Assembly: GCA_021773135.1 (NCBI GenBank)
Contig: JAJFKP010000005.1
Span: 1 to 64,000 of the forward strand
DNA: 64,000 nt
Origin: Woeseiaceae bacterium
GTDB lineage: Bacteria > Pseudomonadota > Gammaproteobacteria > Steroidobacterales > Woeseiaceae
Direction of reading: 5' to 3'
Below the pieces are notes generated by a model that worked only from the letters and a program-made list of their open reading frames with translations, was not told the origin of the DNA and did no database searches. This document shows positions 8,998-31,852 of this stretch, piece after piece. Each line of letters begins with the position of its first letter. Positions within the stretch are counted from its first letter, which is position 1. The translations under genes and the position numbers were made by a program.

Positions 8998-9016
8998 GCG
9001 CCCGTAGCTCAGCTGG
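8998..9016 (+). repeat. Duplicated 5' end of tRNA-Arg followed by a palindrome array
   Basis: The 19 nt at 8998-9016 are identical to the first 19 nt of the intact tRNA-Arg at 9179 (acceptor strand and D-stem). Homology then stops inside the D-loop. The next 160 nt hold a series of small hairpins, including GAAATTGC/GCAATTTC, GCCACG/CGTGGC and GCAGTGC/GCACTGC, before the intact gene starts. It looks like a tRNA copy split by a palindromic insert and is not a functional tRNA. Confidence 0.75.
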
Positions 9017-9178
9017 GTGAGGCGGCAAAGAAATTGCGACAGCAATTTCCCGACGAACGCCACGACCCTACCGGGGCGTGGCCGGGCCCGAGGGGCGAAG
9101 CGCCGAGGGGAGTACTTTGCAGTGCGCAGCACTGCTACTATGAATTAGCATAAGTTTTCAAAAGAACCACAAAACATT

Positions 9179-9255
9179 GCGCCCGTAGCTCAGCTGGATA
9201 GAGTACTTGGCTTCGAACCAAGTGGTCGGGAGTTCGAATCTCTCCGGGCGCGCCA
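9179..9255 (+). tRNA. tRNA-Arg (anticodon TCG)
   Basis: A 77-nt tRNA with encoded CCA. The acceptor stem is GCGCCCG/CGGGCGC with discriminator G. The D-arm is GCTCAGCTGGATAGAGT, and the anticodon stem CTTGG/CCAAG closes the 7-nt loop CTTCGAA with anticodon TCG (reads CGA). The T-arm is GGGAG-TTCGAAT-CTCTC. A strong terminator follows directly. Its 3' end is repeated at 20211-20237 and 31826-31852, which marks it as an insertion hot spot. Confidence 0.96.
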
Positions 9256-9294
9256 AAAACCAAAAGGTCCCGTCAGGGGCCTTTTTGTTTTTGG
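9253..9294 (+). terminator. Rho-independent terminator after tRNA-Arg
   Basis: The stem AAAAGGTCCC/GGGGCCTTTT around a GTCA loop (9262-9285) is flanked by the further complementary arms CCAAAAAC and GTTTTTGG. The T run gives a canonical terminator for the tRNA transcript. Confidence 0.85.
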
Positions 9295-9315
9295 TTTGCC
9301 TGGGTGAAGATGAAA

Positions 9316-9475
9316 GCTCCAGTTCGATAAAACGCGCCAGCGTTTTAGACGCCGCAGGCGCCCCGCAGGGGTGAAGATCGCCCAAAGCCGATCTGTGCCG
9401 AGACCGGCGTAGCCGGTCGACAGACGCCGCAGGCGAGGCAGCATAGCTGCCGCTCAATCAATCTCTCCGGAGTCG
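9316..9475. repeat. Palindrome array R1 ending in a degenerate tRNA-Arg 3' fragment
   Basis: The first half matches R2 (20137 on) and R3 (31764 on) closely. It runs CCAGTTCGATAAAACGC, then the hairpins AAACGC/GCGTTT, GCC/GGC, CCCC-GCA-GGGG and GATCG..GCCGAT. R1 carries additional hairpins, ACCGGC-GTA-GCCGGT and GGCAGC-ATA-GCTGCC, before ending AATCAATCTCTCCGG, the same tRNA-derived tail found in R2 and R3. Further small palindromes continue to about 9520. No gene is credible between 9256 and 9679. Reverse-strand reading frames across the tRNA are antisense artefacts. Confidence 0.75.
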
Positions 9476-9679
9476 CTCTCGCGCATCCATGCGCTTCGCG
9501 AAGCTTGTGCATCCTGCACATCGCGCGCCAAATTTGAGGTCGCGAACTCTAACCTGTGGAAGCTTCGCTTTGAAACTTGCATTTCGCCAACCAGAGCTAT
9601 TGATTCTCCCGGGGTGACGTCCGACCTAGAATGAATCGAGTCGTGTTAAGCGACTAAATCGGAAAGAGAGATCTTAGCG

Positions 9680-10828
9680 TTAGCGTCTTTGAACCCAAAA
9701 AACACCAGGTAATGCAACAACTGTAATAGCAAGCAATGTCGTTGCCAGCAATACGCTCGGCTCAGCGTCAACTCTCGCAGCAAAACCTGCGACTATTGCC
9801 GCCATGAGCATTTTCGAACCGCCAACCACGGCCGCGGACATAGAGGATGAAGCAGCGTCGTTCCGCATGGCCAGAATCGTCGCGTTCGGCATCGCTGTAC
9901 CAGCAAACAACGCGAAAAACAGCATTCCGGAAAACAAGACATAGTCGTATGCGTGCAATAGTAGAATCGATGGGCCAACCAACAGCGAAAACAAGACAGA
10001 TATAAGAAGTACTTTTTCGCTCTTAAATCGATGCAACAGGACCCGACTTAAGCCTCCACCAACGGCGTACGCCGCAGAAAGTGCCGTTACCAGTACCGAA
10101 ATGCGAGCAACGCGAGATGAATTGTCGCTAACCAAATCGCTTGTTAATGCGAGGCATAAAAAGAAACCGCCAAACATAAGCATTGCCGATATGACGCCAC
10201 ACCAAAAAGCAGAATTGCTGGTCAGTTCCACAACTCTCTTGCTCAGCGGACGGGTCCCTGCGGGCATTTCAAACCATTGCGAATTGGCTCGGTTCACCGC
10301 CAGAAAGGCACAAATACCGTACGTACTCAATGCGAAGTAAACAGTACGCCAACCAATTGAGTCAGCTAAAATACCCGCAATTACAGGCGCAATGACGGGT
10401 GCCCATGCAAAAATAGCAGATGCGCTCGACATTGTTTTCGCAGATTCTTCAAACGTGCCAGCATTTCGAATGATTGATCGTCCAATAATTGGACACGCGC
10501 TCGCGAAAAGTCCTTGCACAAATCGTGATACCAATAGCATATCTTGCGATTGCGCCAGGCCTGCGATTAGAGATGCGATGGAGAAGCCGGCTAGTGAAAG
10601 ACTCAACAGCTTTTTCCGGTCGATATGATCAGCTGTCAGGCCAATAGCAAAGTGACCGATAGCGTAACCAAATGCGAAGACGCCAATTATGTTGGCACCT
10701 ACTCCTTTCATAAGCTGAAATTCGGCCTCTATTCCAACCGCACTGGGAATTGCACCATTGGTTCCGATCGAGCCAGTCGCGACAACTAATGCGACAAAGA
10801 ACAGACTCAGCTTAATTCTGTCGTTCAT
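9680..10828 (-). CDS. MFS transporter, drug:H+ antiporter-1 (Bcr/CflA-like)
   Basis: 382 residues from the ATG at 10828, with 12 predicted membrane segments. The first loop between TM2 and TM3 has the MFS motif A form GLTADHIDRKKLLSLSL, and TM5 contains APVIAPVIAGILAD, a motif-C-like glycine/proline pattern typical of DHA1 exporters such as Bcr/CflA. It is probably an exporter of a small hydrophobic compound in the inner membrane. The start overlaps the end of the LysR gene by 17 nt, so the two form an operon. Alternative upstream starts exist. The codon use is more AT-rich than the core genes to the left, in keeping with an acquired block. Confidence 0.85.
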   Translation of the reverse strand: MNDRIKLSLFFVALVVATGSIGTNGAIPSAVGIEAEFQLMKGVGANIIGVFAFGYAIGHFAIGLTADHIDRKKLLSLSLAGFSIASLIAGLAQSQDMLLVSRFVQGLFASACPIIGRSIIRNAGTFEESAKTMSSASAIFAWAPVIAPVIAGILADSIGWRTVYFALSTYGICAFLAVNRANSQWFEMPAGTRPLSKRVVELTSNSAFWCGVISAMLMFGGFFLCLALTSDLVSDNSSRVARISVLVTALSAAYAVGGGLSRVLLHRFKSEKVLLISVLFSLLVGPSILLLHAYDYVLFSGMLFFALFAGTAMPNATILAMRNDAASSSMSAAVVGGSKMLMAAIVAGFAARVDAEPSVLLATTLLAITVVALPGVFWVQRR

Positions 10829-11774
10829 GCGGCAATACATTTGGTTCGGTTGCGTCGCGAGACAATACAGTACCCCGCCATTTGCCTTCCTTGTGAGCAA
10901 TTGTCGTGGCATCTAAAACAAGGTCGTGGACCATTCTTGCGGCAGTCGTCATTGCCGGGCTTCTACGGTGCAGGAGGAACGCAGTTCGTGTGATGCCAGG
11001 CTCCAGAATTTTCCTTGCTGATAGTTTGCCCGCTGCGACCCTATCGTAAATCATCGACCAGGGAGCAATTGCATATCCTAGTCCGGCTTCCAGTAAAGAC
11101 AGCAAAGGATGCACTGCGGCACTGGCAGGTATTCGGTTGAGAGTGATGCCGAGCTGCGCTTCGTACTCGGAAATTGCGCGACCCATTGCATGTTCCTTGC
11201 TGGGCAAGAACATCGGGTAGTTTCCAAGTTCCTTGAAACGAATGGATTGATTGATGTCGAGATTCGCGCCGGTTAAAAAAAGATCTTCCCGAAACAACGG
11301 TTTTGAGTCGAATTCGCTTAAAGGCTCGACGTCGAAATCGATCATGAGGTCAATGTGTCCCGAACGTAGCCACCGAATCAGATGACCAGTGAGGCCCTCT
11401 TCAAACACGAGATGAATCTTCTCGTATCTTGTGCGTACGGCCTCGAAAAGGGGCCGTGTTAGAACGTTTGCAACACTCGCGGGCAATGCAATACCTACCC
11501 GACCGGTTGGATTCGCATCGACCTCTCGAACAGCGACTTTTGCCGATTCGAGTTGCTCCAGAATTGGCTGCGACCTCTCGAGCAATATCGAGCCTGCCTC
11601 CGTTAATTCAACGCCTCGCGGGTGGCGATCGAACAATTTGACGCCCAGCTCTTCTTCGAGGGTTGCGATGGCGTGACTTAGTGCGGGCTGAGCAATATTG
11701 AGCCGTTTCGCGGCTTCGGTGATCGTGCCCGCGTGGGCGACAGCCGTAAATTGAATCAATATGCGCGTATTCAT
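10812..11774 (-). CDS. LysR-family transcriptional regulator
   Basis: 320 residues from the ATG at 11774. The N-terminal winged helix-turn-helix is classic: ITEAAKRLNIAQPALSHAIATLEEELGVKLFDRH at about residues 17-50. The C-terminal periplasmic-binding-like effector domain covers residues 90-295. It is divergent from the esterase/phosphatase/TonB cluster and in operon with the MFS exporter, the usual LysR arrangement in which it controls the divergent genes. A perfect 10-bp inverted repeat in the shared upstream region is the likely binding site. The inducer is unknown. Confidence 0.92.
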   Translation of the reverse strand: MNTRILIQFTAVAHAGTITEAAKRLNIAQPALSHAIATLEEELGVKLFDRHPRGVELTEAGSILLERSQPILEQLESAKVAVREVDANPTGRVGIALPASVANVLTRPLFEAVRTRYEKIHLVFEEGLTGHLIRWLRSGHIDLMIDFDVEPLSEFDSKPLFREDLFLTGANLDINQSIRFKELGNYPMFLPSKEHAMGRAISEYEAQLGITLNRIPASAAVHPLLSLLEAGLGYAIAPWSMIYDRVAAGKLSARKILEPGITRTAFLLHRRSPAMTTAARMVHDLVLDATTIAHKEGKWRGTVLSRDATEPNVLPHERQN

Positions 11775-11793
11775 CGTGAATCGAATATATATC

Positions 11794-11829
11794 AAAAATA
11801 TATGGCAACCAAACAAAGTATATATTTTT
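11794..11829. promoter_or_regulatory. Candidate LysR operator: perfect 10-bp inverted repeat
   Basis: AAAAATATAT (11794-11803) and ATATATTTTT (11820-11829) are exact reverse complements separated by 16 nt. They lie 20 nt upstream of the LysR start and about 100 nt before the divergent esterase gene. The surrounding 60 nt are strikingly AT-rich. LysR proteins usually bind dyads of this kind. Confidence 0.6.
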
Positions 11830-11926
11830 CAAATGACTTGGCACTCGTTAGGATTGCGAATCGAATATGCCATTCAAGCAGCGTCGGATCTGATCGCACG
11901 GGGATGGGCATTTCGAGGGGGGATAA

Positions 11927-12946
11927 GTGAAGTTTCGCTATTGCACGCTCGCAATTGTCGTTCTGTTTGTCATAGGGCGACCCACTATGGCGGACGCCGT
12001 TGCAATCGGTTCCGTTTCCTACTTTTACGTGGGCGGCGAAAAAATACGCAAGGATGACGTGCAGAGTGTCGGTCGCGATCCCGTCTCGGGCTCATTTATC
12101 GTCGATCAGATCGGGGTGTTAAAGCTCGAACCGAGCCCAATCGATGACGCAAGGCCGCCCGTAATTCTGACACCGGGATTCGGCTTGGCAGGACACATCT
12201 ATTTAACGACCGCGGACGGTCGTCCAGGCTGGGCGTACTCGTTCCTTAGAGAAGGGCACACGGTTTACATCATTGATCGCTCACATACTGTGCGCACCGG
12301 CTTCGATGCATTTGCGTTTAACGAAGTGAGAAGTGGGAAAGCACAACCGAAGAGCCAGCCATCATTTGTATTGTGGCTGGAAGAAAGAATCTGGACACGA
12401 TGGGGATTGGGCCCAGCGTTCGGGGAGCAATTTGATGATGGCAAGTTCCCCCTTGATGCGATTGACCAACTGGTCGGTGCGTTTGTGCCGGTCCTCAGCG
12501 AAAACATGCCATTGCGGGACCAGGCGATCGGAAATGCCGAAGGATTGATTATGCTTCTGGATAAAACCGGGCCGGGTATTCTGGTCACGCATTCGGCATC
12601 CGGATTAGATGGTTTCAAAGTCGCAATGCAACGACCAGATCTTGTTCGAGCTGTTGTTTCAATCGAACCTGTCGGCTGCGATCCCGATCAGGCAGAGCAA
12701 TTGCGAGAAATTCCGACGTTGACAGTGTTTGGTGATCATTTGGATATACGACCTCAAATGATTCCCAGGCGCGACGAATGCATGGAACTCGCAAAAGAAC
12801 GGACAGCTCTCGGAAAGCGTGGCGCGGTGCTGTCTCTTCCTGATGTAGGTGTAAACGGAAACTCTCACATCATGATGAGTGATACGAATAGCAACGAGAT
12901 TGCATACAGAATAATTGAGTGGTTAAAAAATGAGCAAGAAAAGTAG
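11927..12946 (+). CDS. Secreted alpha/beta hydrolase, esterase-713-like
   Basis: 339 residues with a GTG start at 11927 after a GAGGGGGG ribosome site. A signal peptide ends near TMADA. The protein has an oxyanion-type HxGxG-like TPGFGLAGHIY segment, an ADGRPGWAYSFLREGHTVYIID stretch and the nucleophile elbow THSASG (Ser about residue 222), then a late Asp (FGDH) and a His near NSHIM. The TPDGR-GW-x-x-F-L-R-x-G-Y signature is typical of the bacterial esterase 713 group. It probably hydrolyses an ester in the periplasm. It overlaps phoD by 17 nt and leads the phoD/TonB receptor cluster. Confidence 0.8.
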   Translation: MKFRYCTLAIVVLFVIGRPTMADAVAIGSVSYFYVGGEKIRKDDVQSVGRDPVSGSFIVDQIGVLKLEPSPIDDARPPVILTPGFGLAGHIYLTTADGRPGWAYSFLREGHTVYIIDRSHTVRTGFDAFAFNEVRSGKAQPKSQPSFVLWLEERIWTRWGLGPAFGEQFDDGKFPLDAIDQLVGAFVPVLSENMPLRDQAIGNAEGLIMLLDKTGPGILVTHSASGLDGFKVAMQRPDLVRAVVSIEPVGCDPDQAEQLREIPTLTVFGDHLDIRPQMIPRRDECMELAKERTALGKRGAVLSLPDVGVNGNSHIMMSDTNSNEIAYRIIEWLKNEQEK

Positions 12947-15074
12947 TGACATAAATAAATCAATTGCAGAGGAATATTCGCGCCGCGATATATTGCGCTA
13001 TTTTGCGACCTCCGCAGGCTGTTTTATCGTTCCGGCGTCGGCAACGGTTTTGATGGCAACGACCAGGCCCGCCGCCGCTCAATCGAACTTTACATTCCCG
13101 CAGGGCGTGGCATCAGCGGATCCGCAATCAGATGCCATTGTCCTGTGGACGCGAGTCGCTGGAACTAAAGGACCAACGTCACTCGTTACTCAGGTTGCAC
13201 GCGACGCTGACTTCACAGAAATAATCGCCGAGTCAACCACGACCGCGCGCCCTGAATTCGATCACACGGTGCGAGTACTGGTCACACAGTTGGACCCGGA
13301 TCGTCACTACTACTATCGGTTTATCGCACCCGATGGTCTTGCAAGCCGACAAGGGCGCACACGAACGGCGCCGTCGCCAGACGCCGATCGGCCATTGAAG
13401 GTGGCAGTCTTCTCTTGCCAGGACTACGAGCTTGGCTATTTCACTGCGTATCGACGCATGTTGCTTGATGACGAAAATGGCAGCGAAACGAATAGTATCG
13501 ATTTCGTCATCCATCTTGGCGATTTTATTTATGAGACCGCTCGTCGCCCGGAATCGATGCAGGGAGGGAACCGGGGAGACGGGCGAACGTATTTGAGGAA
13601 TCGGGATGGTAGCCGTCGCAGTTGCACACCCTTGCCATCGGGTGGCGAACAGGCGGGTCGAGTCTGGGTGGTTCCAGCGGATCTGCCTGACTATCGAGCG
13701 CTGTACAAAGCCTATCTGGCAGATGCGGACCTTCAGGATGCGCGTGCGAATTACCCGTTTGTACAAACCTGGGACGATCACGAATTCAAAAACGATTCCT
13801 GGCAAAGCTATTACGACGAAAGCTCTAGTCCGGAGCTCAAGGTGGCGGCAAACCAGGCCTGGTTTGAATTCATTCCCGCCGCGCTCGCGATGGGTGGACG
13901 GGACGTAGAAAACCATCAGGCCGCAGATTTCGAGCAGGTTGACGTTTCCGATCGACCACCTGAGGCGTTTGATAATCACTACCTTAGCCTCGAGGACAAC
14001 AACGTCGCTGCAATTAATTCGATGACCATCTACCGCACCCTGAAGTGGGGACAGATGGCTGAGATTTTCATGACTGATGCACGCAGCTATCGTGGTCCAC
14101 GTGGGTTTCCGCAAGAGCTGCTAACTGTCGGCAATCATCCCTATCCACCGGCCCCGATTGATCCAAAGCTTATCGACGTTCTGAACGCAGGTAGAACTGC
14201 GCTGAACGGCAATCCGCCGAATGAGATTGACTACCTGGGCCAGAGAATGCCGAATCCGAGGAAGAACGCCCCATTCGGTTCCATGCTGGGTAGCCAACAG
14301 AAAGCCTGGCTTCGCGATCAATTATCCGGTAGCTCGGCCCGCTGGAAATTGCTCGGTTTGAGCGTCGGTCTAATGAGATACGGCTTCGACAGCAGTTTCC
14401 GCGACGACGGTTTTGCTGACGGAATTCTCTGGACGGATGGATGGGATGGTTATCCAGTTGAGCGGAAGGAATTGACCCGCTTTATTCGGGAGCAACGCAT
14501 AAGCAACGTCGTATCACTAACCGCTGATCGTCACATTCATATGGCTGGTGTCGTCATGGATGACTTTGATAGCGAAAACGCATCGCCCGTTATCGCAGAA
14601 TTTGCAGCAGGCGCCATTTGCGCGCCGGTTCGGCTAACTATCCAGAATCGAATCGTGTCCCATGATGCGGAGTTAGCGGCGTTGGTTCAGTTTGATGGAA
14701 CGGCGCATGGTTATGAAAAATCGGTCATGCCTTCAATGAATGCATGGATGCTTTACGGCGCTGCCAGCGCTCGCGCGCTTCATGACGGAAAAACCGAACA
14801 GGAAGCGAAAAAGCTCGAAAATAAACTCGTCAACCGTCATCTGAGCTACGCAGATGCAGACGCGCACGGATACTTCGTCGCAATGTTTGACGATGAGCAG
14901 TGCAATGTCGAGTTTGTTGCGATTCAGGAACCAGTGGAACTGCCGCCGGAAGGTACGGCACCGATTCGTCGGCGCGTAAAATTTTCTGTTGACGCCTGGG
15001 CGGACGGCGATAAACCCGTTTTGAAAACCACGGAGTTGATCGGTGAACGTCCACTTTGCGGACTTCGAACGTGA
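12930..15074 (+). CDS. phoD: PhoD-type alkaline phosphatase/phosphodiesterase
   Basis: 714 residues. A twin-arginine signal (YSRRDILRYFATSAG) lies at about residues 17-31, followed by the PhoD N-terminal domain (FPQGVASADPQSDAIVLWTRV). The metallophosphatase core follows, with the metal-binding residues visible as VFSCQDYELGYF, FVIHLGDFIYE, TWDDHEFKND and the late LTADRHIHMAG. PhoD enzymes are periplasmic, use Fe3+/Ca2+ and release phosphate from mono- and diesters. The gene is coupled to the esterase upstream, and the TonB receptor follows within 40 nt. That suggests the three take up and cleave one class of phospho-compound. Confidence 0.92.
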   Translation: MSKKSSDINKSIAEEYSRRDILRYFATSAGCFIVPASATVLMATTRPAAAQSNFTFPQGVASADPQSDAIVLWTRVAGTKGPTSLVTQVARDADFTEIIAESTTTARPEFDHTVRVLVTQLDPDRHYYYRFIAPDGLASRQGRTRTAPSPDADRPLKVAVFSCQDYELGYFTAYRRMLLDDENGSETNSIDFVIHLGDFIYETARRPESMQGGNRGDGRTYLRNRDGSRRSCTPLPSGGEQAGRVWVVPADLPDYRALYKAYLADADLQDARANYPFVQTWDDHEFKNDSWQSYYDESSSPELKVAANQAWFEFIPAALAMGGRDVENHQAADFEQVDVSDRPPEAFDNHYLSLEDNNVAAINSMTIYRTLKWGQMAEIFMTDARSYRGPRGFPQELLTVGNHPYPPAPIDPKLIDVLNAGRTALNGNPPNEIDYLGQRMPNPRKNAPFGSMLGSQQKAWLRDQLSGSSARWKLLGLSVGLMRYGFDSSFRDDGFADGILWTDGWDGYPVERKELTRFIREQRISNVVSLTADRHIHMAGVVMDDFDSENASPVIAEFAAGAICAPVRLTIQNRIVSHDAELAALVQFDGTAHGYEKSVMPSMNAWMLYGAASARALHDGKTEQEAKKLENKLVNRHLSYADADAHGYFVAMFDDEQCNVEFVAIQEPVELPPEGTAPIRRRVKFSVDAWADGDKPVLKTTELIGERPLCGLRT

Positions 15075-15105
15075 ATACCAAATAAATAGGATAGGGGAGA
15101 TGGTC

Positions 15106-17532
15106 ATGCGATATCTTTTTAGAAGAACAATTTGGAGAGGGCTGCTCGTGTTGCTACTGCCATCTCTTCCGGCGTTCGGACAAGAAACACTCGAGGAAAT
15201 TACCGTTACCGCAGAGAGGCGGGAAGCGGGGCTTCAGGACACTGCACTATCAGTTGTTGCCTACACAGGTGATCGACTCGAGGAACTGGGGATCAATGAT
15301 CCACAAGCCATGGCTGATTTCACGCCAAATATCAGTATTGGCGACGGTACTGGTAGGGGCTCCGGCGGTACGTCCGTGTCGATTCGAGGAATTAATGAGG
15401 CGCGCGTGAGCCCTGTTCTGGATCCTGCAGTCGGTATATATGTTGATGATGTCTACTATGGGCGTCCACAAACGGCATTCTTGAGATTGCTCGATGTTGA
15501 GCGGGTCGAAGTACTTCGAGGCCCTCAGGGAACGCTCTTTGGCAAGAATAGCGTCGGCGGTGCAATCCGCTATATCACAAAGAAACCTGAGTTTGATGAC
15601 ATCAATGGTTATGCCAAGCTCGCTGTCGGCGATTTTAACCGGTTTGACTTGAAAGGCGCCATTAACGTTCCTCTATCAGATACCGCAGCACTCCGTTTGT
15701 CCGCAGCGTCGCTAAAGCGTGATGGATACGTGGATCGGCTGGCGGACGGCGGAGCGCTGGGCAATGACGATACAATTTTTGGCATGGCTCAATTGCGATT
15801 TCGACCTAACGACCGACTGGATGTGAACATCCGTATGGATTACACGGAACGTGATACAGATGATGGGCCAACAAAACTAATCGACTATTATCGGTTCAAC
15901 AACACGACAGATACGACGCCCGGTGGGCCAAATTCTAACGGTGGCGGAGCTGCTGCCACAGCGGCCTGGAATGCTTATTGGGGGTCCACATCGCGAGTCT
16001 ACAACGCGGCGATTCCAGCGAGTCTCTATCAAGTTGCGGGCACTGGCAGACCTACGGAATTGACCAGCGAATCATTTGGTGCAGGCATCGATCTGACCTG
16101 GACGGTATCGGACAATCTGTCCATTCGCTCGATAACAGGCTATCGCAAAGTTGATGAGTTTTCGATGCGTGATCCGGACGATCAGGCCAACGCGTTTTCG
16201 TTTTTCGATGATATCGCTGAAGAAGGTGTTGATTTTTGGTCCCAGGAGTTTCAGTTAAATGGCACCAGCAGTAACGGTCGCCTTAACTGGGTTGGCGGCT
16301 TGTACTACTCGGTCGAAGAACCCTATCGCCGCGACATCGAGGATCGAGATGCTCGTAGTCCCTCGAGGCGCGGTTTGCTTATTCTCAATGATTCCGCCGT
16401 GCAGGAAACGAAAAGCGTCGGCGTCTACTTGCAAGGCGATTTCGACGTAACAGACAAACTTGGCTTGACGCTCGGCGTTCGTTATACGGAAGACGATAAA
16501 ACTTACAACATTTCGCAAACCGCATTGTGGGACAGCGCATTAGCCGCAGAAGCTGCCACAGCGGGACTCGCACCACAGACGCCACCAAACTACAACGGTT
16601 GCGATCCGTCGCTCGCAACGTCTTGCGTATCCGTTGCTCCACTGACCGGCGGTGATACGTTTGATGACGTGACTCCACGTATAGCGCTGCAGTATCACTT
16701 CAGTGATGACGTAATGGGCTTTGTCTCTGCGAGCAAGGGATTCAAAGCCGGGGGCACAAATGACACAGTTGCAGACATCAATACTCCGTTCGAGCCTGAA
16801 CAGCTGTGGACGTATGAGGCTGGTATCAGGACAGAGTTCGCTGACGGCCGGGGGCGATTTAATGCGACCTATTACACGTCGGACTACGAGGACAAACAGA
16901 TTACGGTGACGACGTCGCCTCTGTGCTTCAATCGTTGTACAACTAATGTTGGCGAAGCAACAATCCAGGGTATCGAGATTGACGCCGTAGCACTCGTATC
17001 GGACGGTTTGCAGTTAAGTGTTGGTCTTGGAACTATTGACGCAGAGTGGGACACAATTGATAACCCGTCTGCGGGTGTCGGGTTGAATTCCAAGTTTGGT
17101 CGCGCGCCGGAATTGTCTTACAGACTCGGTGCCCGGTATACGGCGGATCTCTCGGGTGGCGCCCAGATTGTTGCTTCCGCAGACTACGCATACACCGATG
17201 ATCAAAACTCATCACCGCAGGATTCGACGACGATTTTTATCGACGACTACAGTTTGCTGAATTTGCGATTTAGCTATATGGCCGAAAACGGCAACTGGGA
17301 GGCGGGCCTTTTTTGTTCGAACTGCGCGGACGAAGAGTATTACTTCGGCGGTGCCGCCTGGGGCGCTGCGAGCGACAATACACCGTTTCCCGGTGTGAAG
17401 CCTGCGAGCAGTTACATATTTGTTGATAATGGATTTAATCCAAATGGCGTCGCACCGCCGGGAATTACAATTGTCAATGTCGGTGCGCCGAGGATGTGGG
17501 GTGTGGATTTCCGTTACAACTTTGGAAATTGA
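15106..17532 (+). CDS. TonB-dependent outer-membrane receptor
   Basis: 808 residues from the ATG at 15106, preceded by AGGGGAG. An ATG at 15100 is also possible. The signal peptide ends at LPAFGQ, and a TonB box EEITVTAER follows at once. The plug domain has SVSIRGINEAR and VEVLRGPQGTLFGKNSVGGAI, and the 22-strand barrel ends in a terminal aromatic-rich strand (MWGVDFRYNFGN). This is the large family of receptors from sphingomonads and marine gammaproteobacteria that take up organic compounds and not only siderophores. Its place after the esterase and phoD suggests that it imports their substrate. Confidence 0.93.
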   Translation: MRYLFRRTIWRGLLVLLLPSLPAFGQETLEEITVTAERREAGLQDTALSVVAYTGDRLEELGINDPQAMADFTPNISIGDGTGRGSGGTSVSIRGINEARVSPVLDPAVGIYVDDVYYGRPQTAFLRLLDVERVEVLRGPQGTLFGKNSVGGAIRYITKKPEFDDINGYAKLAVGDFNRFDLKGAINVPLSDTAALRLSAASLKRDGYVDRLADGGALGNDDTIFGMAQLRFRPNDRLDVNIRMDYTERDTDDGPTKLIDYYRFNNTTDTTPGGPNSNGGGAAATAAWNAYWGSTSRVYNAAIPASLYQVAGTGRPTELTSESFGAGIDLTWTVSDNLSIRSITGYRKVDEFSMRDPDDQANAFSFFDDIAEEGVDFWSQEFQLNGTSSNGRLNWVGGLYYSVEEPYRRDIEDRDARSPSRRGLLILNDSAVQETKSVGVYLQGDFDVTDKLGLTLGVRYTEDDKTYNISQTALWDSALAAEAATAGLAPQTPPNYNGCDPSLATSCVSVAPLTGGDTFDDVTPRIALQYHFSDDVMGFVSASKGFKAGGTNDTVADINTPFEPEQLWTYEAGIRTEFADGRGRFNATYYTSDYEDKQITVTTSPLCFNRCTTNVGEATIQGIEIDAVALVSDGLQLSVGLGTIDAEWDTIDNPSAGVGLNSKFGRAPELSYRLGARYTADLSGGAQIVASADYAYTDDQNSSPQDSTTIFIDDYSLLNLRFSYMAENGNWEAGLFCSNCADEEYYFGGAAWGAASDNTPFPGVKPASSYIFVDNGFNPNGVAPPGITIVNVGAPRMWGVDFRYNFGN

Positions 17533-17598
17533 TGTCTGGCTGCATCGCGGGGTAGTAAAGCGATGCTACCCGGCGCTTCAGATCATGTGGAAATTTTG

Positions 17599-18657: not shown

Positions 18658-18735
18658 TTACGCACTAAGCAAGAATATAGGCATTGCGCTGGCAAAGATT
18701 TCATAACGATTTAGGTTATTCAGGAGAGTCCATTA

Positions 18736-20067: not shown

Positions 20068-20237
20068 ATTGCGGGAGTGTTGCGTACTTGAGTCCAGAGG
20101 CGTCATGCATCGTCGGGCAATTTGTGGAACGAGCGCCCCAGTTCGATAAAACGCGCAAGCGTTTTAGACGCGGCAGGCGCCCCGCAGGGGTGAGGATCGG
20201 CCAAAGCCGATTCGAATCAATCTCTCCGGGCGCGCCA
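20068..20237. repeat. Repeat R2: palindrome array with tRNA-Arg 3' end
   Basis: From TTGCGGGAGTGTTGCG at 20068 to GCGCGCCA at 20237 this block matches R3 (31573-31852) over nearly its whole length. It contains AAACGC-GCAA-GCGTTT, CCCC-GCA-GGGG and ATCGGC-CAAA-GCCGAT hairpins. It ends TTCGAATCAATCTCTCCGGG-CGCGCCA (20211-20237), the tRNA-Arg T-arm and acceptor strand with two extra bases. It closes accessory block 1. Confidence 0.8.
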
Positions 20238-21401: not shown

Positions 21402-21491
21402 GTTATTTCCATTAATCGTTAAAATTTCTCAGTACACTATATCAAAGACCAACTACTCTTTATTGATCGCCTAAGGCCCGAGAATACAGCA

Positions 21492-23272: not shown

Positions 23273-23485
23273 TTGATCGCTCCTCTTGGGTTGCATGTAA
23301 GAGGAATCTGGGCGCGGCAATCCTTCGATCCTCAGCGAATAGAATTCGAATTATCCCAAACTCGCGATAAAGCTAGCGCGGATGCTACTGGCGATCCGTT
23401 CGCGCAGATACTCCATTTTCAATATCGAAGGATATTTGTTTCCCGCGCCCTCTCCTCTGTTGCAAATATCTATCAGGAGAGAAAA

Positions 23486-24673: not shown

Positions 24674-24732
24674 ACGGCGGGCCGGGCACAAGTGGGACGC
24701 CCTGGGGTTTCTGCTCTTCTGTGAAGACAACA

Positions 24733-25083: not shown

Positions 25084-25164
25084 ATCAGGAAAAACCGAAA
25101 TTGGCGAAGGATATCCAGGACTCGATCCCTCTTTCCTATAGAGAATGCTCAAGACAGGCTACCG

Positions 25165-25797
25165 ATGAAGGAAAATGCAGACAAGAAGCTTGCGAAGCGA
25201 TTGCTGGACGGCGATCGAAAGTCGTTTGACGCTTTCTTCAACAGCTATTTTCCTCGGCTATACCGGTTTGCCCTTGTGCGGGTGGACTACGATCACAACC
25301 TTGCCGACGAAACGGCGCAGATTGTGCTTTGCCAGGCTATTTCCAAGATGTCGACATACCGGGGGGAAGCCTCGCTCTTTGGCTGGTTATGTACGTTCTG
25401 TCGTTATGAGATTTCCAAACAGCTAAAAGCACGGGGACGAGCACAGGGCGATACACCGCTTAGCGAGGATGATCCATCTGTCCGGGCGGCGCTTGAGTCG
25501 CTCCTTTCGGTTTCCGCCAATGACCCCGATGCAGCCGTCTACCAGGGAGAAATTTCACGCCTGGTGAAAGTTGCCCTCGACCAGTTGCCGGCGATTTACG
25601 CGGATTCACTGGAGAGCAAATACGTTCATGGTCTGTCAGTTCAGGAAATCGGCGACCGAATTGGCAAGAGCACGAAGGCAACAGAGTCGATTCTGACTCG
25701 CGCGCGTTCGGCATTCCGGGAGTGTTTTCGGACACTCATACGGGCTGAAAAGGAATGGCAATCCGAAAGCCAACAACTGGCTTCAATTTTCGAGTGA
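25165..25797 (+). CDS. ECF-type RNA polymerase sigma factor
   Basis: 210 residues. Region 2 reads FFNSYFPRLYRFALVRV...NLADETAQIVLCQAISKMSTYRGEASLFGWLCTFCRYE, the core-binding and -10 recognition part. Region 4 has LPAIYADSLESKYVHGLSVQEIGDRIGKSTKATESILTRAR, the -35 helix-turn-helix. No region 3 is present, as expected for ECF factors. The FecR-like gene and STN-type TonB receptor follow directly, so the sigma factor should respond to a ligand bound at the outer membrane. Confidence 0.92.
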   Translation: MKENADKKLAKRLLDGDRKSFDAFFNSYFPRLYRFALVRVDYDHNLADETAQIVLCQAISKMSTYRGEASLFGWLCTFCRYEISKQLKARGRAQGDTPLSEDDPSVRAALESLLSVSANDPDAAVYQGEISRLVKVALDQLPAIYADSLESKYVHGLSVQEIGDRIGKSTKATESILTRARSAFRECFRTLIRAEKEWQSESQQLASIFE

Positions 25798-25843
25798 CAC
25801 AATGCATAAATCATCAAAAGAACAGATTGAAGGAGCAGGCGAC

Positions 25844-26803
25844 ATGGATGACGTAGGCCGACTTATTCAACATGCCGGAGCTCGTGAGGACGTTGCTCCC
25901 GATCGTATGAAGAACGCGCACAATAACGTTGCTGCACATTGGGAATCCGTGGTCGAAGACCGCCAGACCAACAAACGAGCCGCACGGCATCGCTATGCAG
26001 CAATTGCGGCGAGCATTGTTGCAGTCGCCGGCTTGTCAATCGTATTCCTACAATCGACCAACGCGCCGCCGGTGCCTCATCTGGCGCAGGTTGAAAGAGT
26101 TCTGGGTGATGTAGTGGTCACAGGTCTCCGTGCGACCACACAAAGTGAAATCGGCGCAGGCACCGTTATTGAGACAGGCTCTGCCAGCCGTATTGCAATC
26201 AGGCTGGCAGGTGGTCAGTCATTGCGCCTGGATGAGGACAGCAGGCTGGTTGTACATGCAGCGGATCGCGTGACGCTGGATGCCGGCGGTGTGTATATCG
26301 ACACTGCTAACGCTGGAGGGCTGTCGCCCGTGCTGGTATCGACACCTTTGGGTACTGCGTGGGACGTCGGCACTCAATTTCAGGTTCGGCTCACGAACTC
26401 GCTGCTGATAGTTGGCGTACGTGACGGCATTGTCGAAGTCACGCCACAAGGTCAGGCAAGTTTGTCGGTCAACAAAGGTCGATACCTGGAGCTCGGACAA
26501 TTCGGTCAAAAGAAAGAGCGCGACATTGAGTTAGATGATTCGAGCTGGGATTGGGTTGAGACCGTTGTTCCGGCATTTGTGATCGAAGGCAAATCGCTAA
26601 AGGACTTTTTGTTGTGGTATGCAAATGAGCGTGGCGTATCGCTTCTCTGGGATGACCGCGCGTCAGAAACGAAAGCTGCCAATGCCATGCTGACCGGATC
26701 CGTTAGCGGCGCAACACTGGGCGAAGGATTGGAAATTGTTCGTAGGATCGCTCCTTTCGAATACAGGATCGACGGAGAGGAATTGTGGGTCAGAGTAAAT
26801 TAA
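25844..26803 (+). CDS. FecR-like transmembrane anti-sigma/regulator
   Basis: 319 residues from the ATG at 25844, which has a GAAGGAG ribosome site 8 nt upstream. A longer ATG start at 25802 lacks one. A short cytoplasmic N-terminus is followed by one membrane helix (IAASIVAVAGLSIVFL). The FecR domain follows: a GDVVVTG and TVIETGSASRIAIRLAGGQSLRLDEDSRL region, then VSTPLGTAWDVGTQFQVR and VGVRDGIVEV. The C-terminal 80 residues (IEGKSLKDFLLWYANERGVSLLWDD) resemble an STN module. It should hold the sigma factor inactive until the TonB receptor signals. Its end overlaps the receptor start by 19 nt. Confidence 0.9.
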   Translation: MDDVGRLIQHAGAREDVAPDRMKNAHNNVAAHWESVVEDRQTNKRAARHRYAAIAASIVAVAGLSIVFLQSTNAPPVPHLAQVERVLGDVVVTGLRATTQSEIGAGTVIETGSASRIAIRLAGGQSLRLDEDSRLVVHAADRVTLDAGGVYIDTANAGGLSPVLVSTPLGTAWDVGTQFQVRLTNSLLIVGVRDGIVEVTPQGQASLSVNKGRYLELGQFGQKKERDIELDDSSWDWVETVVPAFVIEGKSLKDFLLWYANERGVSLLWDDRASETKAANAMLTGSVSGATLGEGLEIVRRIAPFEYRIDGEELWVRVN

Positions 26804-29361
26804 GCCCTGTTCTTCGGTTCGTCGCGATCGCGCTCCTTTGCTGTTCGCTAGCCGGCGTCTCCGGTGCCGCCGAAATCAACGACCGCATGTCAATTGTGGA
26901 CGCGATTCAGTCTGTCAGGGATCTAGGTTTGGACGTTTCCTATTCCAGTCTCCTGGTCGAACCATGGATGCGCGTTCGCTTTACACCGAAAGACACGGAT
27001 CCGCTGCACGCACTACAACAGGTTCTCGCAGAGTACGGTCTCGCCTTGGAGGAAAGTCGTGGAGCTGGATGGCTAGTTGTTCGAGTCGAGCGACCGGTCA
27101 CCGCACGCACCTTCGCAGTTCGCGGTCGAATTGTCGACGCAGATACAGGGACGTCCATTGCGGCTGCCCGGGTCACCGTCAATGGCCGCCAGGTCACAAC
27201 TGGAGCTGACGGTGAGTTCGAGATTACGGATCTTTCCGGCAGCAACCGCAATCTGCAGATTGTCGCTGATGGATACGTTAGCTTGCAGCGTGAGCTCGCA
27301 ACTGACGACACTGCCTCTGAATATGTGTTCGACCTCGAGCCAGTTGCACTGCCTAATCTGGAAGAGATTACGATCGTCGCAAGTCGACACTCGATGTTTG
27401 ATCGGACCGTAGGTACAGATCACTTCCTGACGGCGGAGGCTATTCAACTAATGCCACACGCCGCGGACGACGCATTTCGAGCCTTTCACAGACTGCCTGG
27501 AGTCGCTGCAAGTGACTTCTCCGCGCCTATGAATTTACGAGGTGGCAGAGGGGACGAGGTCCAAGTCGTGCTTGACGGCATTGAGATATTCGAGCCATAT
27601 CACATGCGGACTTTATTTAGCCCATTGAGCATTGTTGATGCCGGCATCATTGAAACGGCGGAGGTATATTCGGGAGGTTTCACGGCGGAAAATGGCGATT
27701 ACTCAAGCGGCGTAATCGATATATCCAGCGAGATACCGGGCTCGCAACGCAGGCACGAAGTCGGCCTGAGCTTCACCAGTACATTTGCTCGAACTAGCGG
27801 TCAGTTTGATTCCGGAAAAGGCAAATATCTTTTTTCCGCGCGTCGCGGCTTCCTGGATTTAATCGCGGACAAACTCTCAGATGAAAATGAAAAACTGACA
27901 CCTCGATACGGTGATTTTTTTGGAAAAATCAGCCATCGTCCTAATGACGCATTTGAAGCGCGTGTTGGCGTGTTGTTCGCATCAGATGACGTCTCTTTCA
28001 TGGACAATGAAAATGGCGAGGATTCTGGCGGCGATAGTTCACAACGCTATGCTTGGGTCAATACCAGTTACGACCCTAGTGACAACCTGAGTATCGGAAC
28101 TACACTTTTTTCCGGCCGTGTTAAGAACGCTGAGATCGGAATGCTTCACGACGCACCGGAGACTTTTATCGATCGCGAAAACTTTCGGAAGGTAAGCATC
28201 AACGGATTGCAAAGCTTACTTAGTTGGCGTCCCAGTCAGAGTCGCTTGGTCAAAATAGGGATGCGGTATCGAGATTTGGCATCCGACTTTGATTATCAGA
28301 TAAATTCGTTTCGACAATCGATCTTTTTTAACAATAGTGCTCCCCTGGAAGTACAACGAGACATTGTCAAATCTGTGCGAGGTGAAGATATGGGCGTGTT
28401 TGCTGCGTACCGTCATCAGTTCTTGCCGAGTATCATCGGCGAAATTGGAGTCCGATGGGACAAGCAAACTTACATAAATACAGTCGGCGAATCTCAGATA
28501 AGCCCTCGGCTAAATGCGCTTTTCCGACTATCCGACAGAACCGAATTGAAAATCGGTGTTGGGGAGTTTTACCAGCCCCAAGCAATTCAGAACCTACAAA
28601 TTCAGGATGGAATTGAAGAGTATCATCCTGCACAGGTTGCAACTCATTATGTCGTGGGATTGAATCACCAATTCAAATCCGGATTGGAAATGAAGGTGGA
28701 TTTGTACAGCAAACGCTATCGACGACTACAGCCCTTGTTCGAGAACTCATTCGATATATTGGAATTCGCAGCCGAAAGCAACTTCGATCGCGTTCGAATC
28801 AATGCCGATCGGGCCAACGCCCGGGGGCTGGAGATGACACTGCGGAATCGAGGAAACGACTCAGTCGATTGGTGGCTCAATTATTCTCTTTCGAGCGCTG
28901 ACGATGAAGCTGATGGAGTCAAAATTCCTCGCAGCTGGGATCAAGAAAACTCACTGACAGGAAGTGTTGTTTGGCATGGCAATTATTGGACGTTCAGCGC
29001 TGTCGCTCGGTATCGAAGCGGCTGGCCGAGAACAAATTTGGTAACAACCCCGATTTTCGATGATGCAGGAAATGTCATCGGCTTCGATAGCGACTTCTCA
29101 AGTCGCAACCAAAAGCGATACAAGGACTATAGTCGCCTGGATGTGCGTCTGTCACGAGCCGTTCCGCTTCGACGTAGTGAGTTCACCTATTACTTCGAGA
29201 TCCTAAATGTGCTAAATACCAAGAACGAGTGCTGCGTACCAGATTTCGTTCTGGATGACGGAGCAGTAGTTTCAGTTTCGCCCAATATCAATGATTTCCT
29301 GCCATTCTTCCCATCATTTGGATTCGTCTGGACTTTCGGCCCCGGTGCCGGCGATGAATGA
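26785..29361 (+). CDS. STN-domain TonB-dependent receptor/transducer
   Basis: 858 residues with a GTG start at 26785 after GGAGAGG. A signal peptide ends GVSGAAE. The N-terminal STN signalling domain (residues 30-105, MSIVDAIQSVRDLGLDVSYS) contacts FecR in the periplasm. A carboxypeptidase-regulatory-like beta-sandwich comes next (RGRIVDADTGTSIAAARVTV). The plug carries LEEITIVASR, MNLRGGRGDEVQVVLDG and VYSGGFTAENGDYSSGVIDI, and a long barrel ends FGFVWTFGPG. This is a FecA-like transducer built on a SusC-like N-terminus. It completes a sigma/anti-sigma/receptor cell-surface signalling set. The ligand is unknown. Confidence 0.92.
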   Translation: MGQSKLSPVLRFVAIALLCCSLAGVSGAAEINDRMSIVDAIQSVRDLGLDVSYSSLLVEPWMRVRFTPKDTDPLHALQQVLAEYGLALEESRGAGWLVVRVERPVTARTFAVRGRIVDADTGTSIAAARVTVNGRQVTTGADGEFEITDLSGSNRNLQIVADGYVSLQRELATDDTASEYVFDLEPVALPNLEEITIVASRHSMFDRTVGTDHFLTAEAIQLMPHAADDAFRAFHRLPGVAASDFSAPMNLRGGRGDEVQVVLDGIEIFEPYHMRTLFSPLSIVDAGIIETAEVYSGGFTAENGDYSSGVIDISSEIPGSQRRHEVGLSFTSTFARTSGQFDSGKGKYLFSARRGFLDLIADKLSDENEKLTPRYGDFFGKISHRPNDAFEARVGVLFASDDVSFMDNENGEDSGGDSSQRYAWVNTSYDPSDNLSIGTTLFSGRVKNAEIGMLHDAPETFIDRENFRKVSINGLQSLLSWRPSQSRLVKIGMRYRDLASDFDYQINSFRQSIFFNNSAPLEVQRDIVKSVRGEDMGVFAAYRHQFLPSIIGEIGVRWDKQTYINTVGESQISPRLNALFRLSDRTELKIGVGEFYQPQAIQNLQIQDGIEEYHPAQVATHYVVGLNHQFKSGLEMKVDLYSKRYRRLQPLFENSFDILEFAAESNFDRVRINADRANARGLEMTLRNRGNDSVDWWLNYSLSSADDEADGVKIPRSWDQENSLTGSVVWHGNYWTFSAVARYRSGWPRTNLVTTPIFDDAGNVIGFDSDFSSRNQKRYKDYSRLDVRLSRAVPLRRSEFTYYFEILNVLNTKNECCVPDFVLDDGAVVSVSPNINDFLPFFPSFGFVWTFGPGAGDE

Positions 29362-29391
29362 ATGCAGCGACTGAAGTCGAGGGTCAACCTC

Positions 29392-29670
29392 ATGAAAAAA
29401 CACTTTGCGTTATTCTACGCTCGCGGGCCGAACTGGCTCCCGGGAAAGCCGTTACCGGATCAACCGTTGCGGGACCACCTCAATTACATGCGGACGCTAA
29501 AGTCTGATGGCATTGTCAAAATGGGCGGCCCATTTGAAGATGGTTCAGGCGGTCTGGGCGTGGTCGAGGCGGACGCCGTCGAAGACGTGCATGAGTTGAT
29601 TGACCGGGATCCTGCAATTCGCAGCGGAGTGCTTACCGTTGAGTTTTTCGCTTGGGATCGAATCGTATGA
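29392..29670 (+). CDS. YCII-related domain protein
   Basis: 92 residues from the ATG at 29392, which has a GAGGG site 8 nt upstream. An ATG right after the receptor stop at 29362 is possible. The sequence MKKHFALFYARGPNW...RDHLNYMRTLKSDGIVKMGGPF...VVEADAVEDVHELIDRDPA has the YCII pattern with a conserved His and Asp in a dimeric alpha+beta fold. Some members are chlorohydrolases, and most have no known function. It is the last gene in the signalling operon, or just follows it. Confidence 0.75.
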   Translation: MKKHFALFYARGPNWLPGKPLPDQPLRDHLNYMRTLKSDGIVKMGGPFEDGSGGLGVVEADAVEDVHELIDRDPAIRSGVLTVEFFAWDRIV

Positions 29671-29778
29671 GAAAAAGTTGCCTGATGCATTTTCTAAAAT
29701 TCTACAGCCTATCTTGAGCGCCTGGCGCACAGGCAGGCACCCGATTCTCCGGTTAATCTGTTTTTGGAATCTGTAAGC

Positions 29779-30285
29779 ATGGGAATAGAGAATATCGCGG
29801 CGAAGTTTTTCCAAATGTCTGATGGAGTATGGGCGCGACACGCCAACCCGTGGAGTGTCTGGACCCGTTATCTTTGTCTGCCACTATTAGCACTGGCAGT
29901 TTGGTCTCGGGTTTGGATTGGCTGGATGAGTGTGCTGCTGTTTGCCTTGGTCTGCCTTTGGATCTGGTTTAATCCAAGGGTATTCGGCAAGCCCCGCTCT
30001 ACCCATCATTGGGCATCGAGGGCGGTGCTCGGCGAACGCGTACTGTTGAAACACCCAAAGACAGATGTCCCTGCCCACCATCAAAGAGCCATTAGCGCCC
30101 TCAACTTCCTCACCTTTAGCGGCTTCGCCATGGCGATATACGGCCTGGTTGAGTTAAATGCTGCAGCGACTGTGTTCGGAACTATAGTGACGATGCTTGG
30201 GAAGACATGGTTTCTGGACCGCATGGTTTGGTTGTATCAGGAACTGGCTGCCGAAAACGCCGAATATTCTAGCTGGCTCTACTGA
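29779..30285 (+). CDS. DUF6653-like membrane protein
   Basis: 168 residues from the ATG at 29779. A charged N-terminus with MSDGVWARHANPWSVWTRY leads into two adjacent membrane segments, a soluble loop WFNPRVFGKPRSTHHWASRAVLGE, and two more membrane segments. The HxNPxSxWxR and NPRxF...W...R motifs are those of the DUF6653 family. Its stop lies 11 nt before the NADH dehydrogenase start, so the two are co-transcribed. Function unknown, perhaps an accessory to the dehydrogenase. Confidence 0.72.
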   Translation: MGIENIAAKFFQMSDGVWARHANPWSVWTRYLCLPLLALAVWSRVWIGWMSVLLFALVCLWIWFNPRVFGKPRSTHHWASRAVLGERVLLKHPKTDVPAHHQRAISALNFLTFSGFAMAIYGLVELNAAATVFGTIVTMLGKTWFLDRMVWLYQELAAENAEYSSWLY

Positions 30286-30295
30286 AGGTCGAATC

Positions 30296-31570
30296 GTGGG
30301 TGCAAATAGACGGCAGCGAGTTGTGATTGTAGGCGCAGGTTTCGCCGGTCTTTTTGCCGCGCGGGGTCTACGTCGCGTGGATGTCGAGGTCACACTCATC
30401 GATCGACACAACTATCATTTATTTCAGCCCCTACTCTACCAGGTAGCAACAGCCGGGCTCGCGCCGTCAGATATCGCGTGGCCAATCCGTGGAATTTTGA
30501 GCAAACAGAAGAACGTTACTGTGTTGCTCGATCAAGTGACAGGCGTTGATAAAACTACCGGGGAAGCACTCATAGGTGATAGCAAAATTCGATATGATTA
30601 TCTGGTTTTGGCGACAGGAGCACGACATGCATACTTCGGGCACGAGGATTGGGAGCCGTATGCGCCAGGCTTAAAGAGTATCGATGATGCAACCGAGATT
30701 CGACGTCGTATCCTTGTAGCCTTCGAGCGCGCCGAGATGACGACGGATGTCGACGAACGCACACGTTTGTTAAATTTCGTCATCGTAGGTGCAGGTCCGA
30801 CAGGTGTCGAGTTGGCGGGCACCGTTGCTGAACTCGCTCGGCGGACGCTTGCTGCAGACTTTCGGCGCATAGATTCCCGCAGTGCACGAGTAATTCTTGT
30901 AGAGGCCGGACCCCGGGTGTTGCCCGCATTCTCTGAAAAAATGTCATCGTATGCACAAAAGGCGCTAACCAGGCTGGGTGTCGAGGTACTGCTTGAAAAC
31001 GCGGTCACGCAATGTGGGGTCGATGGGGTTGTCGTAGACGGGCAAGATATTCCCTCTGCAACGGTACTGTGGGCGGCAGGTGTTGCAGCGTCGCCTGCCG
31101 GTGACTGGGTGGGCGCGACCGTGGACCGAGCTGGTCGAGTGTTCGTAGAAGCCGACTTATCTGTCTCCAATCACCCGAATATATTCGTCGCCGGTGACAC
31201 AGCCGTCGTGTACGACTCGAAAGGGCAAGTCGTGCCCGGTATCGCTCCCGCGGCCAAACAGCAGGGCCGCTATATCGCGAAAGTAATTCAATCCAGAGTG
31301 GACGGCACGGCCCCGCCCCGTGCATTCCAATATCGGCACACTGGAAATCTGGCGACAATCGGTCGAAAATCTGCAGTCATGGAGCTGCCGTTTATGCGAA
31401 TGACTGGACTGGTCGCATGGTGGGGATGGGGAATCGCACACATCTATTTTCTCATCGGCGTTCGAAGCCCCCTTACTGTCGCGATTAACTGGCTTTGGCA
31501 GTATGTGACATACAGTCGCGGCGCCCGTTTGATTACGGGCGGCCGGCCTGGCGGCGCGGATAGCGAATGA
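30296..31570 (+). CDS. ndh: Type II NADH dehydrogenase (FAD-dependent)
   Basis: 424 residues with a GTG start at 30296 after GAAGG, leaving a short N-terminus before the first Rossmann motif. The FAD motif is VVIVGAGFAGLFAARGLRR, and the NADH motif is FVIVGAGPTGVELAGTVAEL. The loop HNYHLFQPLLYQVATAGL is diagnostic of NDH-2, as are LWAAGVAASP and the second FAD site IFVAGDTAVV. C-terminal hydrophobic and aromatic segments (GLVAWWGWGIAHIYFLIGVR) attach it to the inner membrane. It passes electrons from NADH to quinone without pumping protons. A core-type second copy may exist elsewhere. Confidence 0.92.
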   Translation: MGANRRQRVVIVGAGFAGLFAARGLRRVDVEVTLIDRHNYHLFQPLLYQVATAGLAPSDIAWPIRGILSKQKNVTVLLDQVTGVDKTTGEALIGDSKIRYDYLVLATGARHAYFGHEDWEPYAPGLKSIDDATEIRRRILVAFERAEMTTDVDERTRLLNFVIVGAGPTGVELAGTVAELARRTLAADFRRIDSRSARVILVEAGPRVLPAFSEKMSSYAQKALTRLGVEVLLENAVTQCGVDGVVVDGQDIPSATVLWAAGVAASPAGDWVGATVDRAGRVFVEADLSVSNHPNIFVAGDTAVVYDSKGQVVPGIAPAAKQQGRYIAKVIQSRVDGTAPPRAFQYRHTGNLATIGRKSAVMELPFMRMTGLVAWWGWGIAHIYFLIGVRSPLTVAINWLWQYVTYSRGARLITGGRPGGADSE

Positions 31571-31572
31571 TT

Positions 31573-31852
31573 CTTGCGGGAGTTTTGCGTGATTGAGTCC
31601 TGCACAGTTGTGCATGGTCAGGCAAGTCGTGCAACGGGCGCCCCAACAACTGCTTAATAATTACAATAACTTACGGTTCGACGGTCTCACTTCGAACCCC
31701 GTTATTACTGGGCGTAACGTGAGCCTGCCGGCGTGCAGTTACTGGTTCGGTCGGGAGTTCAAAAAACGCGCGAGCGTTCTAGACGCCGCAGGCGCCCCGC
31801 AGGGGTGAAAATCGGCCAAAGCCGATTCGAATCAATCTCTCCGGGCGTGCCA
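31573..31852. repeat. Repeat R3: palindrome array inside a tRNA-Arg T-arm remnant
   Basis: The left part (31573-31645) matches the left part of R2. GGTCGGGAGTTC at 31749-31760 is identical to the tRNA-Arg variable region and T-stem. The palindrome array (AAACGCGCGAGCGTT, CCCC-GCA-GGGG, ATCGGC-CAAA-GCCGAT) follows. TTCGAATCAATCTCTCCGGG-CGTGCCA at 31826-31852 is the other half of the T-arm plus acceptor strand. It thus reads as a tRNA 3' half split in the T-loop. It closes accessory block 2. About 270 nt to the next gene hold no credible feature. Confidence 0.8.

Follow-up and report, generated by a model that had tools for sequence, protein, structure and literature searches.

Hairpin arrays at partial tRNA-Arg copies of a Woeseiaceae bacterium: a divergent rtT-type repeat whose stems may be kept as folded DNA

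What are the strings of small palindromes that lie beside, and in places inside, partial tRNA-Arg sequences of a Woeseiaceae bacterium, and at what level, RNA or DNA, are their stems maintained? The question is raised by a stretch of 64,000 nucleotides (the window: positions 1 to 64,000 of contig JAJFKP010000005.1, assembly GCA_021773135.1; contig C35 of a 4.5-Mb genome). The first-pass annotation reported hairpin arrays here, which the sequence confirms at or near the positions given, and knew of no element class like them. On sequence comparison, the arrays are a form of the rtT-type repeat found in tRNA operons, one that is divergent, distant and widespread. We put at roughly 0.55 the probability of a fuller reading: that of a divergent rtT-type repeat which multiplies locally and in whose hairpins it is more the folded DNA than the RNA that is maintained. 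The structure, its covariation, the insertion points, the association with tRNA and the relation to rtT of Escherichia coli are established.

Two covariance models describe the family: R1, from six copies, and R2, from 91 copies with no enterics included. Only three places in the window match R1 or R2 at E≤0.01, here called arrays a, b and c; like all features below unless stated, they lie on the forward strand, and all three were among the sequences used to build R1. Array b (20141-20222; 103.9 bits) reads GTTCG-[four hairpins]-CGAATC-AATC, and directly behind it stands an exact copy of the last 19 nt of tRNA-Arg, CCA included (20219-20237). Array c (31757-31837; 94.7 bits) lies within the T-loop of a tRNA-Arg 3' part (GGTCGGGAGTTC / array / AATCTCTCCGGGCG), as judged by comparison with an empty site: the loop is split after GGGAGTTC (31753-31760), the array follows, then CGAATC-AATCTCTCCGGGCGTGCCA, and directly behind it is a copy of the same 19 nt with one mismatch (31834-31852). 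Array a (9322-9459; R1 89.3 bits at 9322-9403) consists of a four-hairpin core and additional hairpins and stops before AATCTCTCCGG (9460-9470); it is downstream of a tRNA-Arg(TCG) gene (9179-9255; ARAGORN; Rfam 68.2 bits), from which it is separated by a terminator-like hairpin with a T-run (9256-9290). The first-pass annotation spoke of split tRNAs: partial copies are indeed split in the D- or T-loop, while the functional tRNA-Arg(TCG) is intact, and array b precedes an exact tRNA 3' end but has a left flank that is not tRNA sequence. A proposed TTCGA target duplication holds at 20141 (GTTCGA...TTCGAATC) and fails at 31757 (GTTCAA).

The core has a consensus of approximately GTTCG-[AAAACGC GNNA GCGTTTT]-RGA-[CGCC GNA GGCG]-[CCCC GNA GGGG]-YGAR-[hairpin]-CGARTC-AATC. 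Array b folds better than shuffled sequence, with a z-score of -3.6 without flanks and -4.5 with them; array c with flanks reaches -3.0 (4 of 200 shuffles fold as well). Folded with DNA parameters, array b forms the expected five-way junction, and array c does so only in part. In the alignment of 91 copies, which was fitted to the model and is hence biased towards the structure, 96.9% of the cells pair and 25 of the 27 pairs change on both sides; cells with a double change number 367, against 73 in shuffles (0 of 500 reach the observed value) and 20-70 in slid controls. In relatives the unit is repeated in tandem with a length of ~165-190 bp (164-nt spacing in one genome; tandem cores seen), and a congener contig of 14,452 bases carries arrays at 4820, 6926 and 7090. 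There is no tandem repetition in the window, where copies lie ~11 kb apart.

Where the core sits is precise. Its omission restores a native T-arm, GTTCG|AATC, and TCG|A is the usual point at which T-, D- and anticodon loops are split. Among 38 copies examined, flank alignment gives clear cases in the T-loop of tRNA-Arg(ACG) (58|59, L132), in the anticodon loop of tRNA-Ser(CGA) (36|37, L126), in the anticodon loop of tRNA-Ser(GGA) after TTGG (L063) and in the D-loop of tRNA-Ser(GCT) (21|22, L122, where the right side is weak; the left side is also seen in L089). An empty site for array c is provided by two congeners that have the same sequence at the right end of the adjoining segment and an uninterrupted tRNA-Arg 3' part with no array; the comparison carries the caveat that the array c locus also has ~50 extra nt beside the array. 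Most other left flanks match tRNA weakly because downstream copies hold an inverted tRNA copy there. In 39 copies that follow a tRNA at a distance of 36-110 nt, the left flank looks like the 3' half of that tRNA in reverse complement, a likeness that is reached by at most 5% of letter shuffles for 38 of the 39; a flank's own tRNA also fits it better than permuted ones (31.5 vs 23.7, sd 0.69; 0 of 5000 reach). Left and right flanks of the same copy pair more strongly than swapped ones (-12.9 vs -11.3 kcal/mol; 0 of 5000), a test made on 45 of the 55 R1 matches after exclusion by hand of ten (array a, copies cut by contig ends, copies adjacent to other arrays, D- and anticodon-loop copies, and L076). 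By the 38-of-39 pattern, 9291-9321 in the window is a probable diverged, inverted tRNA 3'-half copy forming the left arm of an outer stem; taken alone, array a does not rise above shuffles in a stricter inverted-tRNA alignment (300 of 500 reach).

A further array in the window, also noticed in the first pass, matches neither model. At 8998-9016 the 5'-terminal 19 nt of tRNA-Arg, which cover the 5' strand of the acceptor stem and the beginning of the D-arm, recur as an exact repeat of 9179-9197 that is cut in the D-loop after CAGCTGG. A hairpin array recognised by sequence and fold follows (9017-9109, with a GNNA-loop hairpin at 9031-9048), then tRNA sequence resumes with the 8 nt GAGTACTT (9110-9117, matching 9201-9208) and one extra hairpin stands behind it, GCAGTGC-GCA-GCACTGC (9119-9135). 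The z-score of this array is only -1.9 (8 of 200 shuffles as good), and the apparent D-loop split is supported by only 19 + 8 nt together with parallels in other genomes. Elsewhere in the assembly, a 4.45-kb contig ends right after the first 19 nt of a tRNA-Arg (G000:C36:1-19, L084), which suggests a second tRNA-Arg locus broken in assembly at the array repeat. On another contig (G000:C63:1-400, L086), tandem tRNA-Met-like pseudogenes have an array in the T-loop, and the contig end falls inside the repeat.

The family is broad. A DNA search with array b finds six places in its own genome (query included), and R1 finds 20 at E≤1, several of them near tRNA-Ser, -Glu or -Gln or behind the tmRNA gene. 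R1 matches occur in 37 of 60 relatives and in 41 of 370 genomes of the class, and R2 matches in 50 of 397 genomes of the phylum (own genome counted throughout). The loci fetched or scanned were those that the models matched best and are no random sample, and related copies among them do not count as independent; with that scope, the fetched loci (up to ~3 kb) contain a tRNA in 18 of 29 cases for the relatives, in 25 of 28 for the class and in 4 of 7 for the phylum search. A tRNA or tmRNA on the same strand lies within 400 nt of 48 of 65 loci and of 66 of 91 copies, where ~0.2 loci are expected from the tRNA density of the own genome; neighbours on the opposite strand (as in L077) are left out of these totals. 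The 66 near copies belong to Ser (32), Arg (14), Glu (7), Gln (5) and 8 others (Pro, His, Val, tmRNA and one Tyr). Of the 91 copies, 39 sit 36-93 nt downstream of a tRNA, and by a simple script rule a terminator-like hairpin with a T-run occupies 23 of 38 comparable gaps. Over 15 nt, the right flank matches the 3' end of the neighbouring tRNA at 12 or more positions in 25 of 64 copies and at 8-11 in 14. Arrays stand behind tmRNA genes in three genomes (L087, L155, L219), and the copy in the own genome carries a tmRNA T-arm. The presence of arrays at other tRNAs and in other genomes, together with the strong covariation of the stems (25 of 27 pairs changing on both sides), refutes the idea that they are simple decay products of one duplication.

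The suggestion that no known class fits did not survive comparison with Rfam families: the arrays are of the same kind as the rtT repeats (RF00391) of the tyrT operon in E. coli, a kind to which RF02902 also belongs. The tyrT region of E. coli K-12 has four RtT matches by the Rfam model; R1 finds one of these four copies (E=0.007, in 3 kb), and R2 recovers the full set of four both from 3 kb and from 50 kb, the latter without any other match up to E=10, and has no match in 40 kb elsewhere in E. coli. In the other direction, RF00391 has matches at E≤10 in 27 of 40 genomes, above its cut-off in 2; it has no match in the window and none at E≤10 in the own genome, and 5 of 54 listed RtT places coincide with listed R1 places, all five below cut-off. 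RF02902 (AaHKsRNA22, Aggregatibacter small RNA 22), searched in 370 genomes, gives 14 at E≤0.01 and 1 above cut-off; 9 of its 32 listed places coincide with listed R1 places, and R2 matches the place in 21 of 24 fetched loci. In the window its best score, 29.4 bits at 9317-9411, lies below the gathering cut-off of 39.8. As far as sequence and structure models reach, RtT, AaHKsRNA22 and the arrays fall into one superfamily; the search outputs assign no Rfam clan to RF00391 or RF02902.

One way to ask what the stems are kept for is to compare G-U with A-C in them, because selection on RNA should tolerate G-U far above A-C. Among 1814 cells of hairpins 1-4 in 89 distinct copies, G-U and A-C stand at 17:17; in the acceptor, T and anticodon stems of 90 tRNAs from the fetched loci they stand at 61:1 (p=1e-8 against the arrays). 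An even ratio of this kind speaks for DNA, or for some process at the DNA level by which palindromes are restored, and suggests that the arrays act more in the form of folded DNA (single strands or cruciforms) than in that of RNA. The hairpin-forming RNA proposed in the first pass would fit the pairing statistics less well than DNA does. The loops are in keeping with this: hairpin 3 has GNA in 82 of 89 distinct copies and hairpin 2 in 59 of 89, and GNA loops are described as extraordinarily stable DNA minihairpins (Yoshizawa 1997, as cited in PMC6479982 and PMC7432603).

The same G-U and A-C counts bear on the chief alternative, a structured non-coding RNA or attenuator made as part of the tRNA operon transcript, comparable to the rtT transcript, for which an effect on the stringent response has been proposed. 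This is a possibility that we take seriously and still judge rather unlikely. The strong stem covariation would suit it, as would the fact that, of the 66 copies that have a tRNA on their own strand within 400 nt, 53 lie downstream of it, and one copy between tRNA-Tyr and tRNA-Gly in a tRNA cluster (L113); an attenuator has been proposed for rtT-like elements in Enterobacteria (PMC2965389). Against it, G-U is no commoner than A-C in the main set, and in further copies the ratio goes no higher than 21:9; a hairpin with a T-run precedes 23 of the 38 copies that closely follow a tRNA; and 7 of 8 fetched dispersed copies in a genome of another class have no tRNA in the stretch.

Several results weigh against a DNA-level, locally multiplying, tRNA-borne repeat. 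The pairing signal is weaker in 58 further copies (21:9, still unlike tRNA, p=1e-4) and in the 30 copies from AaHKsRNA22 loci and E. coli (9:4), and E. coli rtT is reported as a transcript (PMC2965389) and annotated as the small RNA RttR, which counts in favour of the RNA explanation. Hairpin 1 has GNNA loops in 36 copies and GNA in 8 (44 of 89), hairpin 4 only 14 and 9 (23 of 89). In 25 of 64 copies the right flank agrees with the adjacent tRNA in fewer than 8 of 15 positions; outside the class a tRNA or tmRNA is present in only 3 of 19 fetched stretches (L206-L224), so that the tie to tRNA is loose there. Homogenisation within genomes, taken as a sign of recent spread, was rejected, as copies within a genome are no more alike than copies between genomes (0.664 vs 0.685, four genomes), and so was a grouping by tRNA isotype (0.708 for the same isotype vs 0.717 for different ones); the copies thus give no sign of recent hopping inside genomes, nor of plain inheritance locus by locus. 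Linkage to a recombinase is lacking as well, no convincing array being found beside 10 Y1 transposase genes.

Movement itself has only indirect support, from exact sites, several tRNAs and loops, tandem cores and one empty site. In one genome of another class (G432), 11 model matches are scattered; the 8 that were fetched share a ~200-bp repeat that holds the array (L206-L213), and four of them have a flank in common, which in L209 codes for an IS110-type transposase. IS110 may target this repeat. The mini-mobile element of the first-pass annotation is therefore borne out in its seat in tRNA loops, and its mobility would be read from the exact sites, the one empty site and the dispersed copies. 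A bolder version, to which we give only tentative weight and which we think unlikely, is a non-coding mobile DNA hairpin element that would insert as folded single-stranded DNA at TTCG|A wherever DNA has the shape of a tRNA loop, be it a T-, D- or anticodon loop in a tRNA copy or the T-arm in a tmRNA copy. If true, it would be an integron-like folded-DNA system with the universal tRNA loop as its target, rtT, AaHKsRNA22 and the repeats dispersed in another class would all belong to it, and what has been taken for an RNA gene in rtT would in truth be a DNA element.

Could the mover be a known one? Repeats of the kind called repetitive extragenic palindromes (REP) and bacterial interspersed mosaic elements (BIME) are moved by Y1 transposases (REP-associated tyrosine transposases, RAYT), and Y1_Tnp is found in 33 of 60 genomes, the own one included; by hand count it is present in 27 of 37 array-bearing genomes against 6 of 23 others. 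Size and kinship confound this co-occurrence, several small genomes having neither array nor Y1. Ten array-bearing genomes have no Y1 match, only one model match (15.2 bits, E=0.05) lies beside ten Y1 genes, and E. coli loci described as BIMEs, whose intergenic sequences resemble by eye what we take to be the REP motif, gave no R2 match. A Y1 mover was rejected on these grounds and is very improbable.

A tRNA-targeted island would explain the layout of the window in another manner: the tRNA 3' ends at 20219 and 31834 would be attachment-site scars at the right ends of two ~11-kb tRNA-Arg islands, with the arrays incidental. The two ~11-kb segments between tRNA 3' ends do share a 72-nt sequence at the right end, immediately left of array b (20069-20140) and, with a 78% match, ~110 nt left of array c (31574-31645), and the 19-nt tRNA 3' end forms direct repeats. 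The same 72 nt occur in two congeners (L196, L197) beside an uninterrupted tRNA-Arg(ACG) 3' part with no array, and are probably the terminal sequence of a family of islands at tRNA-Arg that carry TonB receptors and hydrolases. A whole-genome search for tyrosine integrase (PF00589; serine recombinases not searched) found four places, none on this contig, and a scan of ten window proteins found no integrase. Arrays without islands have already been described above: 39 of 91 copies follow a tRNA at 36-93 nt, too close for an island to fit between, so that islands explain the spacing and not the arrays. As an account of the arrays the island explanation fails, and we hold it improbable; it survives only for the 11-kb spacing.

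What the analysis shows, then, is a real, broad and under-described family of the rtT kind, for which a DNA-level hairpin repeat is the better-supported reading and a function and a mover are putative. A unit begins in many cases with a terminator; then come an inverted, imperfect copy of the 3' half of the neighbouring tRNA, GTTCG and four small hairpins, followed by CGARTC, AATC and the tRNA 3' end with CCA. The core is inserted in partial tRNA or tmRNA copies at an exact point, usually TCG|A, in the T-loop and more rarely in the D-loop or anticodon loop; units would multiply locally by template switching in replication, by unequal exchange or by a putative hairpin-recognising recombinase, and effects on RNA or termination would be secondary. 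Apart from the arrays, the window holds a c-di-GMP-I-GGC riboswitch aptamer at 1488-1571 on the reverse strand (69.4 bits).

The comparison of G-U with A-C offers a simple sequence test of an RNA or a DNA role for conserved bacterial hairpin repeats, and so touches the question of what number of annotated small RNAs are in fact DNA elements. The spread, the insertion sites, the outer stem from an inverted half tRNA, the empty-site comparison and the DNA-like pairing appear to be new; this family was not found described outside Enterobacteria in a literature search that did not reach the original rtT papers, so that its absence from print is not shown. The work brings the little-studied rtT repeats of E. 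coli and an unlinked Rfam small RNA into one broad family at tRNA loci with an exact insertion site.

The nearest known system is rtT itself. Like it, the arrays adjoin tRNA genes as tandem repeats ending in a tRNA 3' end with CCA (in the window at 20219-20237 and 31834-31852) and keep the order GTTCGA, four hairpins, GAGTAATC, with GGATGAGAA on the left; unlike it, near copies here are mainly at Ser (32 of 66) and Arg (14) tRNAs with one at Tyr, are often preceded by a terminator-like hairpin and include D- and anticodon-loop insertions. AaHKsRNA22 has the same hairpin order and linkers, but its ten strongest matches lie in one genome (G279), where 3 of 4 fetched loci have no tRNA and are either unmatched by R2 at E≤0.01 or matched weakly. 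REP and BIME sequences are likewise clustered intergenic palindromes, and rtT-like elements have been linked to BIMEs (PMC2965389, section 14); they differ in sequence and in the four-hairpin layout, and identity with BIMEs was rejected because R2 has no match at the E. coli loci named there. Genomic islands targeted to tRNA share with the window the duplicated tRNA 3' ends and the common right end; what sets the arrays apart is that 39 of 91 lie within 93 nt behind a tRNA with no island between.

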